Part shown: positions 108 to 26,791 of the stretch, piece after piece
Position numbering within the stretch: position 1 is the stretch's first letter
Layout of the letters: each line of letters opens with the position of its first letter
NCBI GenBank assembly: GCA_903929035.1
Contig: CAIYTF010000109.1
Span: 1 to 34,186, forward strand
DNA: 34,186 nt
Reading direction: 5' to 3'
Source: an uncultured Ignavibacteriales bacterium
Lineage (GTDB): Bacteria > Bacteroidota > Ignavibacteria > Ignavibacteriales > Ignavibacteriaceae
Notes under the pieces: model-generated
Seen by the model: only the letters and a program-made list of their open reading frames with translations
Told to the model about the DNA's origin: nothing
The model's database searches: none
Program-made: the position numbers and the translations under genes

Positions 108-202
108 TAAGTCCTTGTAAAGAAATAATCTTTACAACTTTTAAATCAAACCTTCGCGTCTTCGCGTGAGAAATTGTTAATGTCATTTCTGAACGAACCC
201 TT
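108..202 (-). repeat. Dispersed palindromic repeat, copy 1
   Basis: This is one of five related intergenic elements in the window, read here on the minus strand. It has the shared core CTCACGCGAAGACGCGAAGG (complement at about 151-170), flanked by imperfect inverted arms containing AGAAAT and ATTTCT, and it ends in the shared TTTACAAGGACTTA. It lies 3' of metG. The remaining bases of 1-267 are AT-rich. Positions 236-270 are a degenerate TTAAT/ATTAAC simple repeat, and I see no gene there. Confidence 0.85.
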
Positions 203-8245: not shown

Positions 8246-8351
8246 TGCTTAGGGCTTGTTACGAAATAACCTTATTACTTTCTCACGCGAAGACGCGAAG
8301 GGTTATTTGTTGGAGCATATGTAAAGGTTATTTCTTGATAAGCCATAAGCA
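8246..8351 (+). repeat. Dispersed palindromic repeat, copy 2 (best-preserved inverted arms)
   Basis: The left arm TGCTTAGGGCTTGTTACGAA (continuing to CCTT) and the complement of the right arm match at 24 of 28 positions, so this 106-bp copy could fold into a long hairpin. The loop carries the core CTCACGCGAAGACGCGAAGG, identical to copy 1. It begins 3 bp after the ATPase stop codon and lies between convergent genes. The remainder up to 8473 shows no recognisable gene. Confidence 0.88.
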
Positions 8352-8473
8352 GCTTTTCCTTGGAGGACCGAGAGACAGATTTCCGGAGAAGAGTGAAGCG
8401 GAAATCAAACAATTATATCTGGGGCGTTTAGAGAAATGTCACAACCGGAATTATTAAAGACAGTAAAAATGGC

Positions 8474-9327
8474 TTAATAGCTTATAACTACACGAAAACC
8501 AATATCGTACTCAGGGTAGTCCGGGTAGGCATTGCGTGTGTCGCGCATCTTCACACGACAGCCTCCCCTATAATTAAAGTACAACGTATAGCCGCGAACA
8601 ACACGAAAAAGACCGTGGCTTGGTCCTATCGGATTTGTCTGTGCGGTGCTACTGTAAGCCCCAAACCAATCCCAGCACCATTCATACACATTCCCGCTCA
8701 TATCGTATATGCCTAATTCGTTTGGTTTTTTCGTCCCTACAGGATGCGTTTTTCCTCCTGAATTACCGTGATGCCACGCAACTTCTTCTATATTATTACT
8801 TCCGCTGTATGTATAGCTATAACTCTGATTACCTCACCTTGCTGCATATTCCCACTCCGCTTCCGTTGGCAGTCTGTAGCCTTTCGCTGCAATATTTCGT
8901 ACAGGGTGATCTAACGATTCTATATCATCTGGCCATTTTGATGGGTCTGTTATTCCGTTTATACTATATAGGGGTCTTACTTTCTTTTATGCTCCGCTTA
9001 TTACAATAACTTAGGCAGTCATACCAACTTACATTCTCTACAGGTACATTATCGCCCACTTTCCGGAAACCGCTCGGGTTCCTGCCCATCACCGCTTTCC
9101 ACTGTCCCTGCGTTACTTCTGTCTACTAATATAATAACATAACTGCTTAGCGTTACTGAATGAGTAGGCGATGCATCATCTAACGAATCTGTACTGCCCA
9201 TAGTGAATGTTCCGCCTTCTACGAGAACAAAACCGTCAGGAACAGGCTTAGAATTTGCTCCATTAACATAACAGCCAAAAACCATAAGGATAAACATAAC
9301 ACTTTTAGAAAGAAGAACTTTTCTCAT
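8474..9327 (-). pseudogene. SUMF1/formylglycine-generating-enzyme-like protein, frameshifted
   Basis: Joining frames reconstructs a secreted protein of the FGE-sulfatase fold (PF03781). A signal peptide with a near-lipobox (VFGC) leads into PVPDGFVLVEGGTFTMGS. After frame changes near 9145 and 9120 come EVTQGQWKAVMGRNPSGF and VPVENVSWYDCLSYCNK. After a further change near 8965 come YRLPTEAEWEYAAR, GIYDMSGNVYEWCWDW and the terminal DIGFRVV. An in-frame TGA at 8834-8836 interrupts the last part, where GNQ follows AAR. With at least three frameshifts and one nonsense codon the gene is dead, unless the assembly is faulty. Only one of the two FGE active-site cysteine positions (GGCR) is seen near the C-terminus, so even the ancestor was probably not a sulfatase-activating enzyme. 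The intact family members in related bacteria are usually secreted and of unknown role. Confidence 0.88.
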
Positions 9328-9379
9328 ATAAACTAACTCCGAATATTTTTAATGGCAAACAATTATCAATCGAAAAATA

Positions 9380-9502: not shown

Positions 9503-10105
9503 ATGGTATGTATGGTACACAGGATTTTAGGTTTCGTAATATTCTTTTCATTACTTGTTTTCCCACAAAGCCCGATCAAGGCAAAGATTGGTGTTTTCGT
9601 GAATGACGCCGGCAAATTGCAGCTGCTTAAATCGAATGACAAGATGAAAGTGGGAACGCAATTCAGGGTATGTATTCAGAGTTTGGAGAAGGAATATATA
9701 TACGCTATCTACAGGGATAATAGTTTTACCTATCTCTTGAATAAAACGAACAGCACGACAATATACGAAGCAGATAAAAGCATTTTTCTTCCGTCAAAAT
9801 CGGAATTCTATTCGATAGATGATAAAAGCCCAAACATTCGGGTATTGGTTATATGCAGTAAAACAAAAATTGATGATATAGAGAAAACATTTGCCGGACA
9901 AAAAAAAATAGCAACATCTGAATGGACTGGATATGAAGAAAAGCTAATTAATTCCCGGAAAAATATTTCTGAGCCGTCAGCTAAACCATTCTCTATAGCC
10001 GGAAATGTGCGCGGTGTTGGAGGCGACAATGTTTTCGATAAACTCCCGGTTCTCAGTGGAAAAGAGTTATTCATACGGAAATATGAGATTGAAGTGCAAA
10101 AATAA
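9503..10105 (+). CDS. Secreted DUF4384-like protein
   Basis: This 200-aa protein has an N-terminal hydrophobic signal (ILGFVIFFSLLVF, cleavage near PQS). Residues about 45-140 follow the DUF4384 pattern as I know it: KMKVGTQFRVCIQSLEKEYI, then YAIY, then an extended strand with LPSKSEFYSIDDKSPN, and a terminal strand VLVICSKTKIDDIEKTF. DUF4384 domains are often found with caspase or CHAT proteases, which fits the operon starting 217 bp downstream. Either ATG 9503 or ATG 9512 may be used; no Shine-Dalgarno is visible. It has its own promoter and is separated from the operon by a palindromic repeat, so co-transcription is uncertain. The last 40 residues (after SRKNISEPSAKP) match nothing I know. 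Confidence 0.7.
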   Translation: MVCMVHRILGFVIFFSLLVFPQSPIKAKIGVFVNDAGKLQLLKSNDKMKVGTQFRVCIQSLEKEYIYAIYRDNSFTYLLNKTNSTTIYEADKSIFLPSKSEFYSIDDKSPNIRVLVICSKTKIDDIEKTFAGQKKIATSEWTGYEEKLINSRKNISEPSAKPFSIAGNVRGVGGDNVFDKLPVLSGKELFIRKYEIEVQK

Positions 10106-10115
10106 GAAATTTGCT

Positions 10116-10215
10116 AAGGGATATTATAAGAAATAACTTTAACATTTTCTCACGCGAAGACGCTAAGATCGCGATGCTTATCTTTAGGAAGATGTAAAAG
10201 TTATTCGTGGGCAAA
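10116..10215 (+). repeat. Dispersed palindromic repeat, copy 3
   Basis: This copy carries CTCACGCGAAGACGC followed by a diverged core. The inner arms AATAACTTTAACA and TGTAAAAGTTATT pair at 12 of 13 positions. It begins 10 bp after a stop codon. It is the most diverged copy: the outer right end lacks the ACAAGGACTTA seen in copies 1 and 4. Confidence 0.75.
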
Positions 10216-10321
10216 CACCTAGTCTCGTTTATAAATTAAGGAACGAATAACAATTGCTATCCTCCGGTTTCAATCCGGCAAAGATGGCTGTTGGTTTTTA
10301 AAAAATAATCTAAAGGAAAAT

Positions 10322-12106
10322 ATGTTACGTGCATTGTTTATTACTTTCTTGATGTTTTTTTCTGTCTTTCATTTCGATATTTTAGGGCAGAATAATTCGC
10401 TTAAAATTTCTGACAGGATTGATTTGCTTTCTTCCAAAATTACTAACCAAAGCACTGATCCGGAACTGAAAAAACAGTTGATCTTCGAATATATTAGTAT
10501 GGATGAGCCTGAATTGGCTCTATTGGAAATGAACGATCTGAACGGTAACAGCCAAATCAACTACGAGCTGATAGAAGCCGGAGCCGATATCCATTTCTAT
10601 ATGGAGAATTTTGAAGCAAGTTTGGCTAATTTCAAATCAGCTTATATATTTAACCCGACAACTGAAAATCTGAAGAAGATTTTATTACTTAATTATTTCC
10701 TTCAAAAAAAAGAAAGTATTCCGCCTATGCTTTCTGATTTGAAGAAAAGGGATACCGCGTTTGTAAAGAGTTTGGGACAAATCTTTCAGAAAGCTCATTT
10801 TAATAAGAAGATTATTCTGGCTGCAAAAGTCGAACGATTTATAAAAGAATACTGCGGTAATGAATATTCAGCAATTTTTCCCAACCCAACCGTTTCCATA
10901 ATTTCTCCGATGAAAAATGTTTCAACAAATTCACGTGCAATTCCATTGACATTTACGGTGAATCACGCCCGGCAGATACAGTCCATCACGGTAAATGGGA
11001 AAGCTGTCTATACTATTAAACCGGACGATGTCAATAAGCCGATATATTTTGAAAAGACATTCAATGTTCCTGTTGATTTGCACGAAGGGGAAAATACGAT
11101 CGGGGTAAAAGCTGAAGATGCTCTCGGGCTAAACGATCAGCAGCAAATTACTGTCTATTGTACCGATTTTCCGCGACTTGCCGAATGGACATCGGTGTAT
11201 TCTGATACCCTTACTAAGTACTTTCGCTATATAAAGAGTTTCGTTCCTGATTCAAGTTATTCGCACGCGCACGCGGAGAATCAGAAGCTGATAGTCATTT
11301 CCACCTCGGAAGGTGCTGATATAGCCGCATTTCAAAAAGGGCTATTCTGGTATGATTTGTTTACACATCCATACTCGGGATTTGTTGATGAAAATAACAC
11401 TAAATTCATCAATATTGAACGAGCGACTACGGCAAATATTGATGTTGTTCTGAATGACTGGCTGCTGAAAAATATGACACTTCAAAGTATAACTAATGTT
11501 TACATTAACGCGGATTGGAAAATAAACGCGGCAGAATGGACTATCAAGATGAAAGACAATAGTTTTTACGATGCCCGGGCAATGATTAAAAAGATATCCA
11601 AGATTACTGCTTCCGGTTTGAATTTTATTATAGATGGGAAAATAGATAATCCGGAATTATTATATCGCGGAGTCGCGGAGATGGTGCAGGAAATCCGCAT
11701 CCCGTGCGCGATCATTTCGCTTTGCACGACAGATTATGTGCCGGTTTTGTGTAATATGATAGCAGCTCCGGATAGTATAGTAAGTGAAGAAAAAGAATTA
11801 TTGCCGGAGAATATGGCAGGTCATATCCCGCTTGCGCGATTATGGAAAAATGAATTTGTACAGCCGCGAATAATAACTAACGCTGCCGCGTTAGTCAGAA
11901 GCAGCTATGCCGAAATGCTTGCAGGGATAGATATAAAACTGAAACGAGATAAAGCCGGCGCGGCTCAGAAAAAAAAGATTCATACTTACATACAGGATTG
12001 GCGCAGATATAGCGAGGTAAGCCGCTACCTTTCAAATTCAATGAGCTTGCAGGACCTCTTAGACCACGCGGATGAGTATTTAACCAGAACAAAGGCGGAG
12101 AACTGA
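10322..12106 (+). CDS. Exported TPR/Ig/caspase-like protein, catalytic residues missing
   Basis: First gene of a five-gene operon, with a good ribosome-binding site (AAAGGA) before ATG 10322. Residues 1-22 are a signal peptide (ending ILGQ). Residues about 45-175 are helical and TPR-like. Residues 189-280 form an Ig-like domain of the type with PTVSIISP, SITVNGKAV and LHEGENTIGVKAEDALG, which in related bacterial proteins often precedes a caspase (C14) domain. Residues 322-470 then follow the caspase order: strand LIVIST, the segment ERATTANIDVVLNDWL, strand TNVYI and strand LNFIID. Where active caspases have SGHG this protein reads NADW (396-399), and where they have DxCxSG it reads DGKID (438-442). 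It would thus be a pseudo-caspase. The caspase relationship is my inference from pattern and architecture. Its neighbour CHAT protein has an intact related fold. It ends 2 nt before the next gene. Confidence 0.65.
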   Translation: MLRALFITFLMFFSVFHFDILGQNNSLKISDRIDLLSSKITNQSTDPELKKQLIFEYISMDEPELALLEMNDLNGNSQINYELIEAGADIHFYMENFEASLANFKSAYIFNPTTENLKKILLLNYFLQKKESIPPMLSDLKKRDTAFVKSLGQIFQKAHFNKKIILAAKVERFIKEYCGNEYSAIFPNPTVSIISPMKNVSTNSRAIPLTFTVNHARQIQSITVNGKAVYTIKPDDVNKPIYFEKTFNVPVDLHEGENTIGVKAEDALGLNDQQQITVYCTDFPRLAEWTSVYSDTLTKYFRYIKSFVPDSSYSHAHAENQKLIVISTSEGADIAAFQKGLFWYDLFTHPYSGFVDENNTKFINIERATTANIDVVLNDWLLKNMTLQSITNVYINADWKINAAEWTIKMKDNSFYDARAMIKKISKITASGLNFIIDGKIDNPELLYRGVAEMVQEIRIPCAIISLCTTDYVPVLCNMIAAPDSIVSEEKELLPENMAGHIPLARLWKNEFVQPRIITNAAALVRSSYAEMLAGIDIKLKRDKAGAAQKKKIHTYIQDWRRYSEVSRYLSNSMSLQDLLDHADEYLTRTKAEN

Positions 12107-12108
12107 AT

Positions 12109-12849
12109 ATGAACCGATTATTATTCATTATCGTTTTTGTTGTCTTATGCTATCAGCCCGTTTTTAGTCAACCTGTTATACATTCATTTGTCAGTTCCCA
12201 ATTTTTTCGCGTTAATGATCTGGGCAAATCAAGAGAAGATTACCGCGACCTGATGAAAGATATTCAAGAGCTTATGCCGCTTTTCGCGGGTAAGCAGCCT
12301 ATTTTCAATCATCTGTTTGTTGGTGATAGTGCATCTCCGAGGTTAGCACTTGATGAATTTGGACAAATCAGCCTGCAGACGGATTCAACTTCATTTGTTG
12401 TACTGCACTTTTTTAGTACTTGGTTCAAGAGACGCGATGAATGGAATTCTGAGGTATCAAAGGGTGAAGTCATTTCTCTTAAATATCTTGAATATTTCTC
12501 TGAATTTATCAAACCGGAAAGCGGATTAATTGTTTTGCTAAGCCCCGCGAATGAGGGACTTTTGCAGGATAAAATGTCGGAATCAGAATTTAACCTTAAT
12601 GGAGGGAAACAGCTTATGATTATTAGCTATCCTGCAGATATGTCTTACTTTGATGCAATGAAACAATATATTAAAGCATTGAGGTCGTGTACAAAGGATG
12701 ACGAAGCAGATTTAAATAAAGATCGTGTAATTACTTTTAGCGAAAGACTGCTTTCACTTAAAAAATATTTAAATGAACGCGAACTATCAGCAGTATTTTA
12801 TCAATTATATCCCGGTACCAACCCTGTTATCGGTGTACTGGATAAGTAA
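12109..12849 (+). CDS. Exported small caspase-like protein, catalytic residues missing
   Basis: Second gene of the operon, 2 nt after its neighbour. This 246-aa protein has a signal peptide (residues 1-20, ending PVFS). From residue 91 the strand order resembles the large subunit of secreted caspase/C13-like proteins: FVVLHFF (usually followed by SGHG, here STWF), GLIVLLSPANEG (where a DxCxSG would be expected), KQLMIISYPAD, and an Asp-rich segment EADLNKDRVITFSERL of the kind seen near the end of such domains. Neither the catalytic His nor the Cys is found. I see no other assignable motif. The family call is a hypothesis; the export signal and operon position are clear. The next ATG lies 1 nt after its stop codon. 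Confidence 0.55.
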   Translation: MNRLLFIIVFVVLCYQPVFSQPVIHSFVSSQFFRVNDLGKSREDYRDLMKDIQELMPLFAGKQPIFNHLFVGDSASPRLALDEFGQISLQTDSTSFVVLHFFSTWFKRRDEWNSEVSKGEVISLKYLEYFSEFIKPESGLIVLLSPANEGLLQDKMSESEFNLNGGKQLMIISYPADMSYFDAMKQYIKALRSCTKDDEADLNKDRVITFSERLLSLKKYLNERELSAVFYQLYPGTNPVIGVLDK

Positions 12850-12850
12850 T

Positions 12851-15676
12851 ATGAAAATATCAATATACATTTTTATCGTACTCTTTACAGGCGGGTTATT
12901 CTCGCAAAGCCAATATCACTTGACAATGAACGGGATTGATTTTAACCGATTTCCGCTTATAGATTTGTATTACACGATTTCGGATCCAAATGGCAACCCG
13001 CCGGATCCCGGTAAAGTAAAAAATCTATCGGGTTATGAAATTTCCCTGAATGACAAAAGTGTTGCTCCCGCGGAAGTTACTTCTATTTTGGATTTGAAAA
13101 CAGCATCTCAGACCGAATTGTATGTAGCATTGGTCTTTGATAATTCGGCATCGATGTATTCGAGGATAGACGCGTTAGAAGATGCTGCGCGGGTTTTCGT
13201 GAACGGGCTGCAGCAAGGGGATTACGCGTGCATTATTGATTTTGGTGATGAGGAAGTAACTCAGGAAATACCGGAATTTCCAAAGCCGATATTTTCTCGA
13301 ATGCGGCAGGATTTCAGTAATTCGCAGTTGATACTGAATAAAAAGATTAAAACCCCGACTTTTACTGCAAGTACCTATATGTATGATGCGCTTCTCTATG
13401 GTTTATCGGTGTTAAATACAACAAATGTTTTAGGAAAGAAAGCCTTGATTTTCTTTTCTGATGGAAATAATATTGGTTCTAAATCAGATTTTGACGCGGT
13501 GGAAAAGTATGCATTACAGTACGAGATACCGATTTACGCGATTGACCTGAACCAGCGGAAAAATCAGGTGCTTGAGCGTTTGGCGAAAGAAAGCGGAGGA
13601 GAGTATTTTTACGTGGAATCTCCGGAAGATTTACGACTGCTTTACGCTTCTTTAGTCAAGCAGCTTAGAAACCAGTTCCGTGTCGCGGTGAAGTCCCCCT
13701 TCGATTTCTTAAACACTAACCGGTATAGTGCATCAATACAAAAGGAGATAGACAGCAGCCAATTACGTGATACCAAAACTTTTACTGTTGATGGAGAAAA
13801 ACTGGGATATACAACTTTGGTTTACTTGGAAAGTACAGGTAAAGAAACAGCTAAGAATTATTTCGATTATCTGAACCGCTTTCCAAAGTTGTCATACAGG
13901 GATAATGTTGAATTGAGGCTGGGAGATTATTGGACTCGTCACGGGGAATACCCGAAAGCAATGTCTGTTTACAATCGTATTCTCAGGAATCCGCAGAGTC
14001 CTTCTTATGAACAGGCGGGCTTTCAGAAAGCAAAATTACTTGAGATGGCAAAGGACTATCAAGGCGCAAAAAATTTATATCAGAGCCTTTCACACAGCTC
14101 AACAGTTAATAACATTAAAGCCAAATCGAGTATCAGTTATGCAAACCAATTAGTGGTTGAGGGTAATTACAAGGTGGCTTATGATGAATATACCCGAATT
14201 ATAGCTGAGAATGAAGGAACTGATTATGCCACTGAAAGTTTGTATCGCCGCGCAGACCTGAATAAAAAAATGAAAAATCTCGATAAAGCCGTGGAGGACT
14301 ATACCACTCTCAATCAGCAATACAAGAACTCCAAGTACGCGAATGACGCGACATACGAGCTGGCGGATATCAACCTATCTAAAAAAAATTATACACAGTC
14401 AGAGACATTATTCAAGGAGCTGATTGGGAATACGGCAGAGCCGGATATTAAGGCTAACGGCTATATTAAACTGATTGAATTGTATGAATCCACAAAACAG
14501 TTTGAAAAGGCTGCAGTCGTAGCTGATACATTAGCTGCTACATCGCAGGTATTCGCATCAGACCCAAAGTATCGCGGTAAAAAGATAGAGTATGAATACA
14601 ATAATCAAAATTTTGCAAAAGGAAAGGAAGTATTCGAGAACAGCACACCGGAAATACAGCAGTCACTTAAGGCAAAATCTTTCTTGTTACCTGCTGAAAA
14701 CCCGCGGAAAACAGTTTTTTATAACGGGGCTTCTATTGGATTTATTGGCAGCTCCCAGGAGAAACCGCCGCTTAGCGGAGTCTATTCCTCGGAACTAAGC
14801 AAAAAGTATAAGCTCCTCGAGCCGGCTTATAACGTGGATACATCGCTTGGTACGCGTACATCCGACAGCCTTTCAGTAACAATTCCTATCCGCAAAGAAT
14901 GGGTTACTAATAAATTAATAGATCCCTCAACTGCCGGAATTTATTACGCGCGGGAAAATACAATGGAAGCAATACCCTCCCGGTTTAATGCCAAGGATTT
15001 AACCATTTCATTTGAACCGCGTGGAAATGGTCTATACGCGCTACTGACAGAGAAACCTAAGGTAATCACTCTTTATAATGTATATTTTGACCCAAATCAG
15101 GCAACCATTCGAAAGGATGCAGAAAAAAATCTTTATGAAATGATAGATTATCTAAAAAATTCGCCTGAACTTAGAATAGAGATTACAGGTTATACTGATT
15201 CAACAGGAACAGATGAGCGGAATATTCAATTATCAATGGAACGCGCAACATCAATACGCGATTTTATGGCAAAAAACGGTATTGATAAAGCACGGTTCAC
15301 GGTTCGCGGATATGGCAGCTCGTATCCGATTGCTGCAAATACAACAGAAGAAAACAGGCAAAAAAATCGGCGCACGGAATTCGCGATTCTCAGTACTTCA
15401 ATAAATACTACCGCTATTGCCTCCACGGCAAAAGATAGGCAAAGGTTTGCTGTTATTGTTAAAACTTTCGATGATATGAAAACTGCTTATGAGCAGCGGA
15501 GGTATTTTAACCAACGCGGTTATAAGTCATCCGTTATAATTAATCCAAAAGCGAACGGCAGCGAATTTGATCTTGTTTTATGTATCTTGAATACCGAAGA
15601 AGAAGCTAAGCAGGAAATCCGAAAATTTTCAGAAGAATATAAACAAGGTTATTCATTAAAAATAAAGCAGCTTTAG
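12851..15676 (+). CDS. VWA-TPR-OmpA-SPOR envelope protein
   Basis: The chosen start is ATG 12851, just after the preceding stop, because it gives a clean signal peptide (MKISIYIFIVLFTGGLFSQS); the frame is open further upstream. The product is 941 aa. Residues 89-275 are a von Willebrand A domain with a complete-looking MIDAS (DNSAS 97-101, TAST near 172-175, SDG 203-205). Residues about 350-600 are TPR repeats. Residues 737-848 are an OmpA-like domain (VYFDPNQATIR, TGYTDSTGTDERN, RRTEFAI) that binds meso-diaminopimelate peptidoglycan in known homologues. Residues 863-940 match a SPOR domain (RFAVIVKTFDDMKTAYEQRR with GSEFDLVLC), which binds denuded glycan strands. It is therefore probably a periplasmic scaffold attached to the wall by two domains and able to bind a partner through VWA and TPR. 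Confidence 0.85.
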   Translation: MKISIYIFIVLFTGGLFSQSQYHLTMNGIDFNRFPLIDLYYTISDPNGNPPDPGKVKNLSGYEISLNDKSVAPAEVTSILDLKTASQTELYVALVFDNSASMYSRIDALEDAARVFVNGLQQGDYACIIDFGDEEVTQEIPEFPKPIFSRMRQDFSNSQLILNKKIKTPTFTASTYMYDALLYGLSVLNTTNVLGKKALIFFSDGNNIGSKSDFDAVEKYALQYEIPIYAIDLNQRKNQVLERLAKESGGEYFYVESPEDLRLLYASLVKQLRNQFRVAVKSPFDFLNTNRYSASIQKEIDSSQLRDTKTFTVDGEKLGYTTLVYLESTGKETAKNYFDYLNRFPKLSYRDNVELRLGDYWTRHGEYPKAMSVYNRILRNPQSPSYEQAGFQKAKLLEMAKDYQGAKNLYQSLSHSSTVNNIKAKSSISYANQLVVEGNYKVAYDEYTRIIAENEGTDYATESLYRRADLNKKMKNLDKAVEDYTTLNQQYKNSKYANDATYELADINLSKKNYTQSETLFKELIGNTAEPDIKANGYIKLIELYESTKQFEKAAVVADTLAATSQVFASDPKYRGKKIEYEYNNQNFAKGKEVFENSTPEIQQSLKAKSFLLPAENPRKTVFYNGASIGFIGSSQEKPPLSGVYSSELSKKYKLLEPAYNVDTSLGTRTSDSLSVTIPIRKEWVTNKLIDPSTAGIYYARENTMEAIPSRFNAKDLTISFEPRGNGLYALLTEKPKVITLYNVYFDPNQATIRKDAEKNLYEMIDYLKNSPELRIEITGYTDSTGTDERNIQLSMERATSIRDFMAKNGIDKARFTVRGYGSSYPIAANTTEENRQKNRRTEFAILSTSINTTAIASTAKDRQRFAVIVKTFDDMKTAYEQRRYFNQRGYKSSVIINPKANGSEFDLVLCILNTEEEAKQEIRKFSEEYKQGYSLKIKQL

Positions 15677-15683
15677 GTGGGTT

Positions 15684-18600
15684 ATGAATATCATCCGGAT
15701 TCGTTCACGGTTAATGAGATTAATTATATTGGTCTTCATTTTATCTTCAGCAGTATTACCGCAGTCTCTAAGTGTAAAATGGGAAAAAGTTAATAATTTC
15801 TATGAAACAGAAGTTTATGATTCTGTAATTACAAATATGCCTGAGCTATTGAGGGATTTTGAGAATGCAAAGCTCGATTCTCAATTAGTAACAGCCTGCC
15901 ATTATTTGGAGATGTCTTTATTTAGGGCCGGGCAGGACAGGAGTGCTGATTCGATTCGGCAGACAGCGGAACTATTTGCACAAAAACATTCACTTTTGGC
16001 ATTGATGGCTGATTACATACAGGAGCGCAATTGGATACTCCTTGATATAGCCAGTGGTTTACAGAAACGGGATTCACGGACTAAACAGGTGACAAATTCC
16101 GGACGCGTGCTGGCTATATTGCATCGAATAATCATTACGCCGGATGATTCGCTTTCTTTAACACCGAAGTTACGTGCTTACGCGCTTTCAGGGCAGATAC
16201 TAAAAACGGCTAATCAGACGGCAGGTATTACTGACGCGCTTAAGCCGGCGTTGAAACTTGTTCACGCTGATGATACGGTAAATGTAAACGAGATAAAAGC
16301 AATTCTGCGGTTTCTTTCAGAGTCATACTTAACCCGTGGCGATATCGAGGAAGTTTACTTGTTGATGAATGATTTTGGCTATCGTCCAAGCTACAGGGAT
16401 ATTATAACTTATTCAGCCAAGTTTCTCAATTCTCCTAAAGGGAATGAATTTGATCGTTTGTTTACAAGCCTGCGTGATAACTATCTTTTTTCGCCTTATG
16501 ATTCCATTGCTTTCGATTATGTTATATCGCGTTTTGTAATGGAGTCCCGTCTTTATAATATTAATGCTGCAATTGACAGCCTGCAATCAACCATTGTATA
16601 TCTTGAAACATCGCGTGATACGACAGGAACTTTGTTGTTTAATGTTTATCAAATGTATATAAAGAAATGCTTAGAAAATTTTATGGTCGCGCAATCCGCT
16701 TGGGCATTTAACATACTCGAACGAAGATACACCAGCTCAACAATTTCCGGTGATTTGAGGTCCGCTTTGGTTTCACTGAAAGGAGATATTCTGGCAATAC
16801 GCGGGGAGTATATGGAAGCGGAAAAACTGTATTTAAAACAGCTGCCATCACTAAATTTACTCAAGCCTATAGAGCGGCTCTCGCTGTTGAATAACCTTGG
16901 ATTATGTCAAACGGCATTAGGGAAAGTACCCGAAGGCAGCGAGACATTTGGCTTGCTGAAAACGCAAGTTTCTCTTATTTCCGATACATCAGCAAGAATC
17001 AAGGAATTTCTTATCCTCGCGAATCTGAATGAAGGTATCCTCTTTCTTCGAAACGATAAGCCGGATAGTGCTATTACCCAATTTAAAGAGGGACAGCGTA
17101 TAGCAAAGGAGATGAATTTTTCTTCTTACACAGCCCTGTTTTATATTCGGTTAGCCGATGCTTTTCGTTCGAAAGGGTACACGCGGCAAGCATCGGAAAT
17201 GTTTGACTCATTACGCGCCACCCTGAATATATTAACCGAACCATTCAAAAAGATGCAGATATATGAGTCCCTTGCCGCTTTCGAGTCTGAAAAAGGAAAT
17301 ACAGAACAGAGCTTAGATTATTACAGCGAAGCTTTGCTGCTTGCAGAGCGCAATGCTTTCAGCGGCGCAAAGATTAATCTCGCGGGGAGCATCGCGGATG
17401 TATATTTACAGTGTGACAGTCTCAGGAAAGCACTCGGTCTTTTTCGTGTTGTCCGCGAAGCCGTTGAGCGAAATGGCAGTAAGGTTGACCGATATTATCA
17501 GAATCTAAAAATGGCTTTAGTCTTTTTGAATACGAATGAGTTTGATTCGTCAAGGACTTACATCGGGAATTGTTTTAATCTTCTAACTGATAGATCGAAT
17601 CCTAATATTGATTCACTTGCATCGTTAAAAGTTCAATATCCTTACCTTTTGACTTTAACGATTAGTTTGCTTGCCGAGGTAAATTTTTATGAAGGACAGA
17701 CGTATGCCGATTTCAGGAAAATAAAGCTTGCTTATAGTCAGGCGCAGCGCGCGGTGGAATATAATAAGGCAAATTTTGCTGATGTTTTTACTTACCAAGG
17801 CGAGTCAACCCAATTTTTGAAATCTGTCGATTGCTATAAGGTTCTCATTGAAATCGCGCTTCATTTGTATGAAAAGACAAATGACGATGAATATATGAAA
17901 GGGGCATTTGACGCGTGTGAAAATTCCCGTTCACAGGCATTTGTTTCTGAAATCGGCTCGAAAGTATTTTTCAACATACCTGAGACACAGGTTGATACAG
18001 CGGAAGTTGTTCAGCATATTAGCAAGACTATGAAGAGAAAAAAAAATCAGGTGATGGCAAATGCAGGTGAGATTAATCCGTATTCGCGCCGCAGGGATAT
18101 TGATGTCGTGCAAGATACAACAAGGGATGTTTTGAAAGAACAGCAGCAATACAACGAATATATTAACTCTCTCAAGAAAACCAATACAAAGACGGCAGGA
18201 TTGCTTTCGCCTGATGTAAACGTGTTAAGTATTAAAGGAATTGCAACATCCCTTGCGGAGGATGAAGTTTTATTAAACTATTATGTATCGCGAAACCGCA
18301 CTTATTTATTCTATATTACCAATTCGGATTCCCGCGTTATTTCAATTCCTTTGGATGAGAAAACAATAGCTGAAATGTGCGAAACTTACCGGATGGTGCT
18401 GCAAAACAAGGGAGATACGTCCGATATGTCGCGCGGGTTCAAGACTCTTGGACAGTCTGAAAATAAAAAAAAGATCGAGCAAAATATAGGGCTGAGCTGG
18501 CAGTTATATAATTATCTGATCGCGCCTGTTGAAAAAGATATTGTAAACAAAAAATTGTTGATTGTTCCGAGCGGTGCTTTGCACGCCATTCCTTTCAGTT

Positions 18601-19310
18601 CGCTAATGAATAAGCAGAAAAAATATCTTATTGAAACGAATTCTGTTTCCGTGTTGCCCAACGCGAGTGCCATTCAATTGATATTAAAAAATATAAAATC
18701 GGAAAGCAGCAGGAATGTACTTGCTTTTGGAAATCCGGATTGCGGTGATATTGCCTCTCCTTTACCGGGTGCAGAGGCTGAAGTAAATATGATAGCTTCA
18801 TATTTCCCAAAATCATCGGTTTTTATCGGGGCAGATGCCCAAGAGCGAAAAGTTAAAGACCTAATTTCTAATTATTCGATTATTCACTTTGCCTGTCACG
18901 GGGTTTTTAATGGCGACTATCCGCTGCTTTCAAGGCTGCTTCTTACGGCTGGGAATAATGAAGATGGGAATCTTGAACTGCGTGAATTGTATAACTTGAA
19001 ACTTAGCAAGTGCAATCTCGTGGTGCTATCGGCGTGTGAATCCGGATTGGCGAAAGTAAAAAAGAATGATGACTTGATAGGCTTGGTCCGCGGATTCCTC
19101 TATGCCGGTTCACCCGGTGTTATTGCAAGTTTATGGAAGGTTGATGACGCGGCAACTTCTTTTTTGATGGAGCGGCTTTATTTTTACTTGAGTAATAATT
19201 TTTCGAGGGGTGAAGCACTGCAGAAAGCGCAGATGGATACTATGCAGTCCCCATTATTTTCGCATCCATATTTTTGGTCGGCATTCCAGTTAAATGGTGT
19301 CGGGAGATAG
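15684..19310 (+). CDS. Exported TPR-CHAT protease
   Basis: This 1208-aa protein is the catalytic member of the operon. The N-terminal segment LMRLIILVFILSSAVLPQ is a signal peptide. About 800 residues of TPR-like helical pairs follow (for example LGLCQTALGKVPEGSETFGLL and ADAFRSKGYTRQASEMF). The CHAT domain (PF12770, a caspase-fold cysteine protease family) runs from about residue 855 to the end. It has LPGAEAEVNMIASYF, IIHFACHG with His1072, and LVVLSACESG with Cys1118, so the dyad is intact, and it ends HPYFWSAFQLNG, a typical CHAT terminus. AGGTGG lies only 3 nt before ATG 15684, so ATG 15714 (inside the same leader) is an alternative start. TPR-CHAT proteases include the CRISPR-linked Csx29, but this one is predicted to be exported and has no cas neighbours. 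Substrate is unknown. Confidence 0.88.
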   Translation: MNIIRIRSRLMRLIILVFILSSAVLPQSLSVKWEKVNNFYETEVYDSVITNMPELLRDFENAKLDSQLVTACHYLEMSLFRAGQDRSADSIRQTAELFAQKHSLLALMADYIQERNWILLDIASGLQKRDSRTKQVTNSGRVLAILHRIIITPDDSLSLTPKLRAYALSGQILKTANQTAGITDALKPALKLVHADDTVNVNEIKAILRFLSESYLTRGDIEEVYLLMNDFGYRPSYRDIITYSAKFLNSPKGNEFDRLFTSLRDNYLFSPYDSIAFDYVISRFVMESRLYNINAAIDSLQSTIVYLETSRDTTGTLLFNVYQMYIKKCLENFMVAQSAWAFNILERRYTSSTISGDLRSALVSLKGDILAIRGEYMEAEKLYLKQLPSLNLLKPIERLSLLNNLGLCQTALGKVPEGSETFGLLKTQVSLISDTSARIKEFLILANLNEGILFLRNDKPDSAITQFKEGQRIAKEMNFSSYTALFYIRLADAFRSKGYTRQASEMFDSLRATLNILTEPFKKMQIYESLAAFESEKGNTEQSLDYYSEALLLAERNAFSGAKINLAGSIADVYLQCDSLRKALGLFRVVREAVERNGSKVDRYYQNLKMALVFLNTNEFDSSRTYIGNCFNLLTDRSNPNIDSLASLKVQYPYLLTLTISLLAEVNFYEGQTYADFRKIKLAYSQAQRAVEYNKANFADVFTYQGESTQFLKSVDCYKVLIEIALHLYEKTNDDEYMKGAFDACENSRSQAFVSEIGSKVFFNIPETQVDTAEVVQHISKTMKRKKNQVMANAGEINPYSRRRDIDVVQDTTRDVLKEQQQYNEYINSLKKTNTKTAGLLSPDVNVLSIKGIATSLAEDEVLLNYYVSRNRTYLFYITNSDSRVISIPLDEKTIAEMCETYRMVLQNKGDTSDMSRGFKTLGQSENKKKIEQNIGLSWQLYNYLIAPVEKDIVNKKLLIVPSGALHAIPFSSLMNKQKKYLIETNSVSVLPNASAIQLILKNIKSESSRNVLAFGNPDCGDIASPLPGAEAEVNMIASYFPKSSVFIGADAQERKVKDLISNYSIIHFACHGVFNGDYPLLSRLLLTAGNNEDGNLELRELYNLKLSKCNLVVLSACESGLAKVKKNDDLIGLVRGFLYAGSPGVIASLWKVDDAATSFLMERLYFYLSNNFSRGEALQKAQMDTMQSPLFSHPYFWSAFQLNGVGR

Positions 19311-19314
19311 ATCA

Positions 19315-20904
19315 ATGATATTTATCTTGATGTTTATCAGTCTTTCATCAAGCATTTGGGCACAGCCGGATTGGGTATCCGGCGGCGGTATTTCGGTAGG
19401 TTTCCCAACTTCAACTTACATAACCGGCTTTGGTATTTGTAAGGTAACGGATTCGGTGGATAAAATAAAAGCACGGGCAATGGCTTTGGAAATCGCCCGC
19501 GGTAATTTAGCTGAAAAAGTACTGGTTACTATATCGAATAATATTACTTCAAAAAAGGAGGAGTCCGATGCACGAGTATCGGAATATTTTTCAAATGTAA
19601 CGCAATCGCGTTCAACGCTTCACGTTACAGGCTTGCAGGAAAAAGCACCTTACTATGACGAGGATGAAGAACAGTATTATGCTTTAGTTTATGCCGAAAG
19701 AGAAAACCTAATTAATTCTTATACTGATAACATAAATCAGCTGGCACTTGAGATTAAAAATAAAACTGCCGCGGGGAAAAAACTTGAGCAGGATAATAAT
19801 AATGAAGCGGCTCTGAAAGAATACCTTTCCTGTCTTTCGCTTTATTCCCAATATGATGAGATGGCTGCTATCCGAAAAGCACTTTCAACAGATGCCGTGC
19901 TAATGTTAGAGGAATCGGAACAAAAGCAGAATATTCAGGAATTCCCGCCGTCTATTGGCGGCATTAACGAGAGTATTGCACGAATCGTTAACCGTCCCAT
20001 AAAAACAATTGAAGATGTTATCTGGTATATCGTGCATTGTTTGGATGAAAAGATCGGTCACGGGCTTAAAAAAGTAATGGTTGATCCGTTTGTTTACGCG
20101 GATACCCGTATGTCGGGTTCGTTTTCAAGATATTGCAGAGAATCTTTGGAGCAATCTTTTGCTGTTAAACTTGGCTGGGATATTATTAAACTGAATCAAA
20201 ATAGTATAGAGCAAACTTTAGTATTGAGCAGCGGACAGAAACCGGATCAAGTTTGCGGGCATATTGTTTCAGGGTCGTTCTGGGAGCAGGGTGATAAAGT
20301 TGTCTGCAAAGCCCGCTGCGTAAGTACTGCCGAGAACAAGATAATTGCCGGTGTTGAGTTTTCCTTTGACAAAAAAATATTGGAAACAGCCGGAATGAGT
20401 TTGAAGCCTCAAAATTACCAAGAAGCTCTTATTGACCAAAAGATTTTCGCGCAGGGTGAAATCATTGACGGCGGTCTCCGCGTGGAAGTTATGACCAATA
20501 AAGGGGCTGACAATATTATATTTAATGAAAATGATTCTATGCGTGTATTCCTGCGCGTAAATTTGCCGTGTCATATCCGCCTAATCTATCACCAAGCCGA
20601 TGGCGCGCGCGTACTGCTGCTTGATGATTTATTTATTGATGAGGCAAAAGTAAATAAATGGTTCAATCCGCAGGGGGCATTGGGCACTTTTATATGCGCA
20701 GCACCGTTTGGTGCGGAAGTTTTGCAGGTAAACGCGCAAACCGCCGAGTTTGATAAGCTGGAAACAAAGCATATTGATGATTTAGCTGTAATCATAGGCG
20801 ACCTTAAAGAGGCAGTCAATTCAACCCGCGGTATGAAAAAGATGACGAATATGAAAATGCGTGCCGAGACACGGATAGTGATGACAACAATGGGGGAGAG
20901 GTAG
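19315..20904 (+). CDS. Exported LPP20/DUF4384-like protein
   Basis: Last gene of the operon. ATG 19315 is chosen over ATG 19294: GGGAG lies 8 nt upstream and the product then starts directly with the signal peptide MIFILMFISLSSSIWAQ. The product is 529 aa. Residues about 20-140 match the LPP20/FlgT-N type fold (YITGFGICKVTDSVDKIKAR, then EIARGNLAEKVLVTI). The middle part, about 205-375, resembles bacterial proteins that assemble a CsgG/TolB-like nucleotide-binding fold, though this is weak. Residues about 385-500 are DUF4384-like (ENDSMRVFLRVNLPCHIRLI, then DGARVLLL). The tail with TRGMKK and AETRIVMTTM is basic and methionine-rich. No lipobox cysteine follows the signal, so it is probably soluble in the periplasm or secreted. 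Confidence 0.78.
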   Translation: MIFILMFISLSSSIWAQPDWVSGGGISVGFPTSTYITGFGICKVTDSVDKIKARAMALEIARGNLAEKVLVTISNNITSKKEESDARVSEYFSNVTQSRSTLHVTGLQEKAPYYDEDEEQYYALVYAERENLINSYTDNINQLALEIKNKTAAGKKLEQDNNNEAALKEYLSCLSLYSQYDEMAAIRKALSTDAVLMLEESEQKQNIQEFPPSIGGINESIARIVNRPIKTIEDVIWYIVHCLDEKIGHGLKKVMVDPFVYADTRMSGSFSRYCRESLEQSFAVKLGWDIIKLNQNSIEQTLVLSSGQKPDQVCGHIVSGSFWEQGDKVVCKARCVSTAENKIIAGVEFSFDKKILETAGMSLKPQNYQEALIDQKIFAQGEIIDGGLRVEVMTNKGADNIIFNENDSMRVFLRVNLPCHIRLIYHQADGARVLLLDDLFIDEAKVNKWFNPQGALGTFICAAPFGAEVLQVNAQTAEFDKLETKHIDDLAVIIGDLKEAVNSTRGMKKMTNMKMRAETRIVMTTMGER

Positions 20905-21065: not shown

Positions 21066-21168
21066 TGCTTAGGGCTTGTTCATAAATACCCTTAACACTT
21101 TCTCGCGCGAAGACCGCAAAGGTTAGATTTTGAAGATGTAAAGGTTATTTCTTTACAAGGACTTAATG
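21066..21168 (+). repeat. Dispersed palindromic repeat, copy 4
   Basis: It shares TGCTTAGGGCTTGTT with copy 2 on the left and ctTTACAAGGACTTA with copy 1 on the right. The core is CTCGCGCGAAGACCGCAAAGG. The inner arms AAATACCCTTAACA and TGTAAAGGTTATTT pair at 11 of 14 positions. Its last bases provide the TAA stop codon (21163-21165, minus strand) of the following convergent gene. The stretch 20905-21065 before it holds nothing I recognise. Confidence 0.88.
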
Positions 21169-26704: not shown

Positions 26705-26791
26705 GGACTCGTTCAGAAATAACATTTTCTCACGCGAAGACCGCGAAGGTTAGATTTAGAAGTTATATGTTATTTCTTTAGAAGAACTTAA
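26703..26791 (+). repeat. Dispersed palindromic repeat, copy 5
   Basis: The left end starts within the stop codon of the metalloenzyme gene (TAAGGACTCGTTC). The inner arms AGAAATAACAT and ATGTTATTTCT are perfect inverted complements over 11 bp. The core is CTCACGCGAAGACCGCGAAGG. It lies between convergent genes. Confidence 0.88.

Follow-up and report, generated by a model that had tools for sequence, protein, structure and literature searches.

Do a CHAT protease and two caspase-like proteins that seem to have lost their active sites form one conserved system at the cell envelope, and what would such a system do? What is known of CHAT and caspase-type proteases in bacteria comes mostly from defence and death systems of the cytoplasm. 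The question is raised by a stretch of 34,186 nucleotides (nt) from an uncultured Ignavibacteriales bacterium (contig CAIYTF010000109.1), referred to as the window, in which a first-pass annotation had described five consecutive genes, here named A to E, as an exported protease operon. Our analysis indicates that A-D belong together and E does not, and that two partners were overlooked. These appear to be U, a gene just upstream of A, and a CHASE2 adenylate cyclase gene (CYC), which lies between U and A in four relatives. Together they may couple proteolysis at the envelope to cyclic AMP (cAMP) signalling.

A check of the open reading frames in the window found all five genes at the annotated coordinates, and A-D form an operon-like unit of four adjacent genes. 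The annotated gaps of 1-7 nt hold for A-B (2 nt), B-C (1 nt) and C-D (7 nt), but D and E overlap by 17 nt, or are separated by 4 nt if E starts at the internal ATG at 19315. The start of C was placed at 12851, where the product begins with a signal peptide; a longer reading frame from 12773 overlaps B. Sec signal peptides had been assigned to all five products, and a hydrophobic core of 11 residues (mean Kyte-Doolittle values 2.5-3.7) was indeed present near the N-terminus of each. In most of A-E, and likewise in their orthologues, a cleavage-like small residue precedes Gln. A signal-peptide-like start was seen by hydropathy on all six products (U and A-E) and on nearly all orthologues. A-D and U are therefore predicted to be Sec-exported proteins, a call made from hydropathy and cleavage-like ends.

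The order A-B-C-D, on the same strand, was found in the window and at L021/L044, L022/L047, L023/L048, L024/L045 and L033/L049. Partial loci were also detected, with CYC-A-B-C at L035, C-D at a contig start (L046) and A at a contig end (L034). The complete arrangement U-CYC-A-B-C-D is present in L044, L047, L048 and L049. The A, B, C and D proteins of these loci are 20-28%, 15-20%, 32-39% and 28-32% identical, respectively, to those of the window, and the flanking genes differ between most of the A-D loci. Because the order is kept at 15-39% identity in different surroundings, A-D must have been selected as a unit, and the conservation of their order is far beyond chance or recent shared ancestry. 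The first-pass annotation had staked its proposal on two points, a gene order conserved in relatives and a caspase-like fold in its first two products; the order was found for A-D, and the fold is predicted for A and B.

Gene D (15684..19310, plus strand) encodes a signal peptide, a long TPR region and, at the C-terminus, a CHAT cysteine-protease domain that carries His1072 and Cys1118. The annotation of D as a TPR-CHAT protein with an intact dyad was borne out, as D matched the Pfam CHAT family at 4.6e-74 (249.9 bits, cut-off 24), and the dyad together with its flanks was invariant in six orthologues. Conservation in D is highest over the CHAT region, which is 44-51% identical, compared with about 30% for the whole protein. 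By these sequence criteria, D is predicted to be a CHAT protease with an intact His-Cys dyad. The NCBIfam Csx29 model also matched D (4e-12), far under the cut-off of that model. At L035, where D is absent, a different CHAT gene (L035:6225-7304) is located directly after C in convergent orientation, and its visible part contains HIATHG and SACETG.

The products of the first two genes were annotated as two apparently dead caspase-like proteins. Gene A (10322..12106, plus strand) encodes a signal peptide, TPRs (residues ~31-185), an Ig-like/Glucodextran_B domain (189-279; Pfam Glucodextran_B, 7.4e-8), a caspase-fold domain (~290-510) and C-terminal helices; the TPR region was visible in the AlphaFold model and gave a weak match to MamA. 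Gene B (12109..12849, plus strand) encodes a signal peptide and a caspase-fold domain in which GxW replaces GHG, with an EF-hand-like loop near the C-terminus. This loop, D-N-D...I..SE, resembles a loop near the end of active caspases. Pfam assigned no domain to the C-terminal half of A or to B, neither protein matched Pfam C14 (caspase) up to E 1, and the caspase fold was recognized by structure prediction. The AlphaFold models, built from six-sequence alignments, had pLDDT values of 81 for A and 63 for B, the latter being a low-confidence model. In a Foldseek search of B against PDB, the top 50 matches were all caspases, metacaspases or MALT1 (best E 5e-5, probability 1.0). With full-length A, TPR- and Ig-bearing structures led the list, which included Arabidopsis metacaspase-9 (E 1.4e-3) and Dronc (E 3.3e-3). 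Residues 321-509 of the A model show the strand and helix order of a caspase. A weak bridge at the sequence level is that a profile of A positions 345-398 matched the stretch ahead of GHG in active WD40-Ig-caspases from this class, with 18-32 bits at most loci, and that hhalign aligned A with caspases at 1.3e-3, compared with about 0.1 for unrelated controls. For B, no significant score was obtained when its profile was compared with those of caspases; the assignment of B therefore rests on its fold.

The catalytic His (GHG) and Cys (DxC) were absent from the aligned sites in all eight A and seven B sequences. The His site is filled by D, E, P, S or R in A and by A, T, G, C or P (usually as GxW) in B; the Cys site is filled by K, E, L, S or Y in A and by A, R, K, M, G or P in B. 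Since a caspase fold is predicted and both catalytic residues are lost in every orthologue, A and B are best regarded as putative pseudocaspases, B on weaker grounds, and they may act as decoys or adaptors.

Gene C (12851..15676, plus strand) encodes a signal peptide, a VWA domain with an intact MIDAS, TPRs, an OmpA peptidoglycan-binding domain and a SPOR-like C-terminus. It had been described as a VWA-TPR-OmpA-SPOR scaffold. The VWA, TPR and OmpA domains all scored over the Pfam cut-offs, but SPOR was undetected in the C of the window and was seen in four of seven orthologues (best E 8e-9). The MIDAS and OmpA residues were invariant in seven C orthologues, which are 32-39% identical to the C of the window. 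C is thus a candidate wall-anchored scaffold.

Gene U (9503..10105, plus strand) encodes an exported protein of about 200 amino acids of the DUF4384 type, which shares 34-37% identity with its orthologues in the operons. The DUF4384 match of the window's U was sub-threshold, and a distant family member gave 1.3e-13. Gene E (19294..20904, plus strand) encodes an exported LPP20-like/DUF4384-like protein that is co-directional with the conserved unit and lies outside it. Its matches to both families exist as annotated, at scores under the curated Pfam cut-offs. The operons of relatives contain no E homologue, and the sole other homologue is located at a different place in one genome of the same genus. 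E was therefore dropped as an operon member, contrary to the first-pass annotation.

In relatives, the place corresponding to the 216-nt gap between U and A (10106..10321) is occupied by the CYC gene, whose product joins a CHASE2 membrane sensor to a class III cyclase according to Pfam matches. The genome of the window has a member of this family as well, which stands by itself on a different contig (L042:1856-4066, minus strand) and matches an operon copy at about 46% identity over 637 residues. The metal-binding Asp residues, the substrate Lys/Asp and the Asn/Arg of the cyclase are all conserved, including in this copy. Phylogenetic analysis placed the L042 copy within the same clade as the operon copies (100/100), without resolving the branching inside it. 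CYC copies apart from A-D were also present in G001, G003, G010 and G035.

A search with U gave 22 matches among 294 genomes of the class. In 14 of these 22 genomes, and in G015, a gene for a WD40-Ig-caspase is located directly before U and is followed by CYC on the same strand (L146, L147, L148, L166-L176 and L143). The order caspase-U-CYC was the same in 15 of 15 genomes, with a full-length cyclase in 14 and one cut by a contig end, and pairwise identities within the set were as low as 17-24%. It is within this group that the distant member with the clear DUF4384 match was found. The trio caspases keep GHG and DxC, and most start with a signal peptide, although a few reading frames were called too early to judge. 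The trio shares with the A-D loci its U and CYC homologues and their order, as well as an exported caspase-fold partner, in which an Ig-like domain precedes the caspase domain as in A. Unlike those loci, it contains just one caspase, in which His and Cys are intact and a WD40 propeller is present, and lacks CHAT, B and the VWA-OmpA scaffold. The A-D operon may be an elaborated version of the trio. In G019, caspase genes are located nearby. Directly after the trio at L143, an H-type lectin domain protein with a signal-peptide-like start is encoded (L143:10333-10701). In G024, three tandem U copies precede a CHASE2 cyclase that is split by an in-frame TAG (L144:258-4373), on a contig apart from the A-D of that genome.

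Comparison with known systems returned no named counterpart, and the first-pass annotation had named none either. PADLOC gave no match for A, B, D, E or U, and the OmpA and cyclase domains gave generic matches to ZorB and PycC. The PycC profiles matched the cyclase domain at 9e-24; the CHASE2 architecture differs from Pycsar, whose effectors were looked for in only part of the neighbouring genes. Like D, Csx29 of the type III-E Craspase combines TPRs with a CHAT protease, whereas D is exported by prediction and is accompanied by neither Cas7-11 nor a CRISPR array. The pseudo-orthocaspases of Cyanobacteria and Alphaproteobacteria resemble A and B in having a caspase fold without the His-Cys dyad, and some carry DUF4384, which accompanies one of their clades in Alphaproteobacteria (PMC6426788). 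They differ in that Tyr-Ser or Gln-Cys replaces His-Cys and in being detectable with caspase profiles (PMC6426788), while A and B have diverged beyond the reach of Pfam C14, carry different substitutions and stand beside a CHAT protease. In the open-access literature on CHAT with CHASE2, on CHASE2 with caspase and WD40, on DUF4384 with caspase and on exported TPR-CHAT proteins, we found the present arrangement nowhere described, and an earlier description is possible.

Two precedents bear on the possible output. Sensing of a plant protein via the outer-membrane protein NsrA leads CHASE2 cyclases of Sinorhizobium to raise cAMP (PMC13001267), and a metacaspase-CHASE2 fusion occurs in Trichodesmium (PMC3501461). 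The S. meliloti cyclases CyaD1, CyaD2 and CyaK resemble CYC in combining CHASE2 with a cyclase and, with NsrA, in reporting a protein event on the envelope side to cAMP; no caspase or CHAT partner is mentioned for them (PMC13001267), and the likeness is drawn from their description. Because of these precedents, a cAMP output is plausible for the loci analyzed here.

We tentatively read U, A-D and the CHASE2 cyclase as an envelope-localized protease module coupled to cAMP signalling, with a likelihood that we put slightly below even. In such a module, C would bind peptidoglycan via OmpA and display its VWA and TPR surfaces, and D would be the sole active protease. A and B would bind a substrate or partner, and would either keep D in check or bring its substrate to it. 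D would be freed by a signal at the envelope (damage, a foreign protein or a peptide) and might then cleave U, an A/B/C complex or the CHASE2 sensor, so that cytoplasmic cyclase activity changes and the cyclase carries the outcome across the inner membrane. Complex formation, cleavage, the identity of the substrate and the control of the cyclase are the steps that we infer. The first-pass annotation had proposed an exported system of regulated proteolysis; the exported set with its conserved A-D stands, while U and the CHASE2 cyclase point beyond proteolysis alone, to second-messenger coupling. A wider and more speculative possibility is an envelope signalling cassette found throughout the class, which would link an exported caspase-fold protease to a constant DUF4384-CHASE2-cyclase pair as a caspase-to-cAMP pathway from periplasm to cytoplasm. 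Its protease slot would be interchangeable, filled by an active WD40-caspase in most lineages and by CHAT, two dead caspases and a wall anchor in some Ignavibacteria. On both readings, the active role would have passed to CHAT in the A-D operon, and the dead caspases would have stayed on as adaptors. In the A-D loci, three predicted caspase-fold proteins, one live and two dead, are by prediction exported side by side, and they recur in association with a CHASE2 adenylate cyclase. If this link is functional, the orphan exported caspases gain a testable output, cAMP, and bacteria would provide a case of a pseudo-protease controlling its live relative, as cFLIP, itself a pseudo-protease, controls caspase-8.

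Several observations weigh against a single coupled module. A-D are rare and patchy (8 of 391 genomes of the class), U or CYC occur alone in some genomes (U alone in G010 and G035), and at L035 CYC-A-B-C stands beside the different, convergent CHAT gene. In the window, U is not followed by a cyclase, and L045 keeps A-D while its U and cyclase are on another contig; therefore, the A-D and U-CYC parts seem separable. For the solo cyclase of the window's genome, the tree fits equally a copy that left the operon and an old solo copy. In a rival reading, A-D would be a machine for envelope maintenance or assembly (for example surface or outer-membrane protein processing, or wall-stress repair), in which D cleaves clients, A, B and C dock them, and U and the cyclase perform a separate sensing task. 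C resembles wall-bound OmpA scaffolds, A-D occur without adjacent U and CYC in L045 and probably L034, and U and CYC are found without A-D. We consider this machine less likely than the coupled module, as U-CYC-A-B-C-D is intact in four divergent loci and 15 genomes also link U-CYC with an intact caspase gene, a pattern not to be expected of chance neighbours.

The patchy distribution would also suit a cell-death, competition or defence module, in which A and B restrain a lethal exported protease, D, and let it act once a threat is detected, and TPR-CHAT and caspase-type proteases do act in Craspase and gasdermin systems. Such a role is improbable given the lack of PADLOC matches for A, B, D, E and U. 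The window contains no CRISPR-like repeats (no 24-mer present three times or more), and among its genes scanned there was no Cas gene and no Pfam match to gasdermin or another effector. The neighbours are housekeeping genes (methionyl-tRNA synthetase, HisRS-like and DnaG, with a P-type ATPase, PrmC and DTD also present), and since all products look exported, a phage signal from the cytoplasm is improbable. Catalysis has been lost from two of the three caspase-fold members, which would agree with a CHAT domain that binds rather than cuts, and with A, B and D as a non-catalytic envelope scaffold. The dyad of D and its surroundings are, however, among the most conserved parts of the operon, making such a scaffold less probable still. 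The coupled module therefore remains our preferred, if tentative, reading.

The named records with D orthologues are Ignavibacteriales and Melioribacteraceae metagenome bins; many of the surveyed genomes are fragmented bins of this kind. In the phylum sample, A-D were detected in 2 of 396 genomes. A contig scan with the D sequence alone gave no matches, and a scan based on the D alignment used two short patterns, which does not prove absence outside Ignavibacteria. The other CHAT loci that it recovered (Aminicenantes and others) contained none of A, B, U or CYC, and one weak 21-bit match to C in the TPR region. In mostly Aminicenantes-type genomes, two TPR-CHAT genes of about 1000 amino acids each are located a few kb apart on opposite strands (L053, L054, L056, L059-L064, L066, L067, L069-L071, L075 and L084).

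An interspersed repeat around CTCACGCGAAGACGC has 102 genome-wide matches with at most one mismatch, compared with 0 for the reversed control. Its copies in the window (156-171, 8281-8296, 10148-10163, 21101-21116 and 26728-26743) lie on both sides of the operon, with one inside the U-A gap, and on other contigs they are in places spaced by about 100 bp. Movement of the cyclase by this repeat was unsupported: the repeat is present in the U-A gap but absent from the 12 kb around the L042 cyclase, which is near a contig end. The co-directional run U-A-B-C-D-E is bordered on one side by two glycosyltransferase genes and on the other by a frameshifted remnant. The latter (8400-9340, minus strand), recognized by eye, is a broken gene resembling those of formylglycine-generating enzymes/sulfatase-modifying factors, with the pieces EGGTFTMGS, LPTEAEWEYAAR and GIYDMSGNVYEWCWDW scattered across two or three frames with stops.

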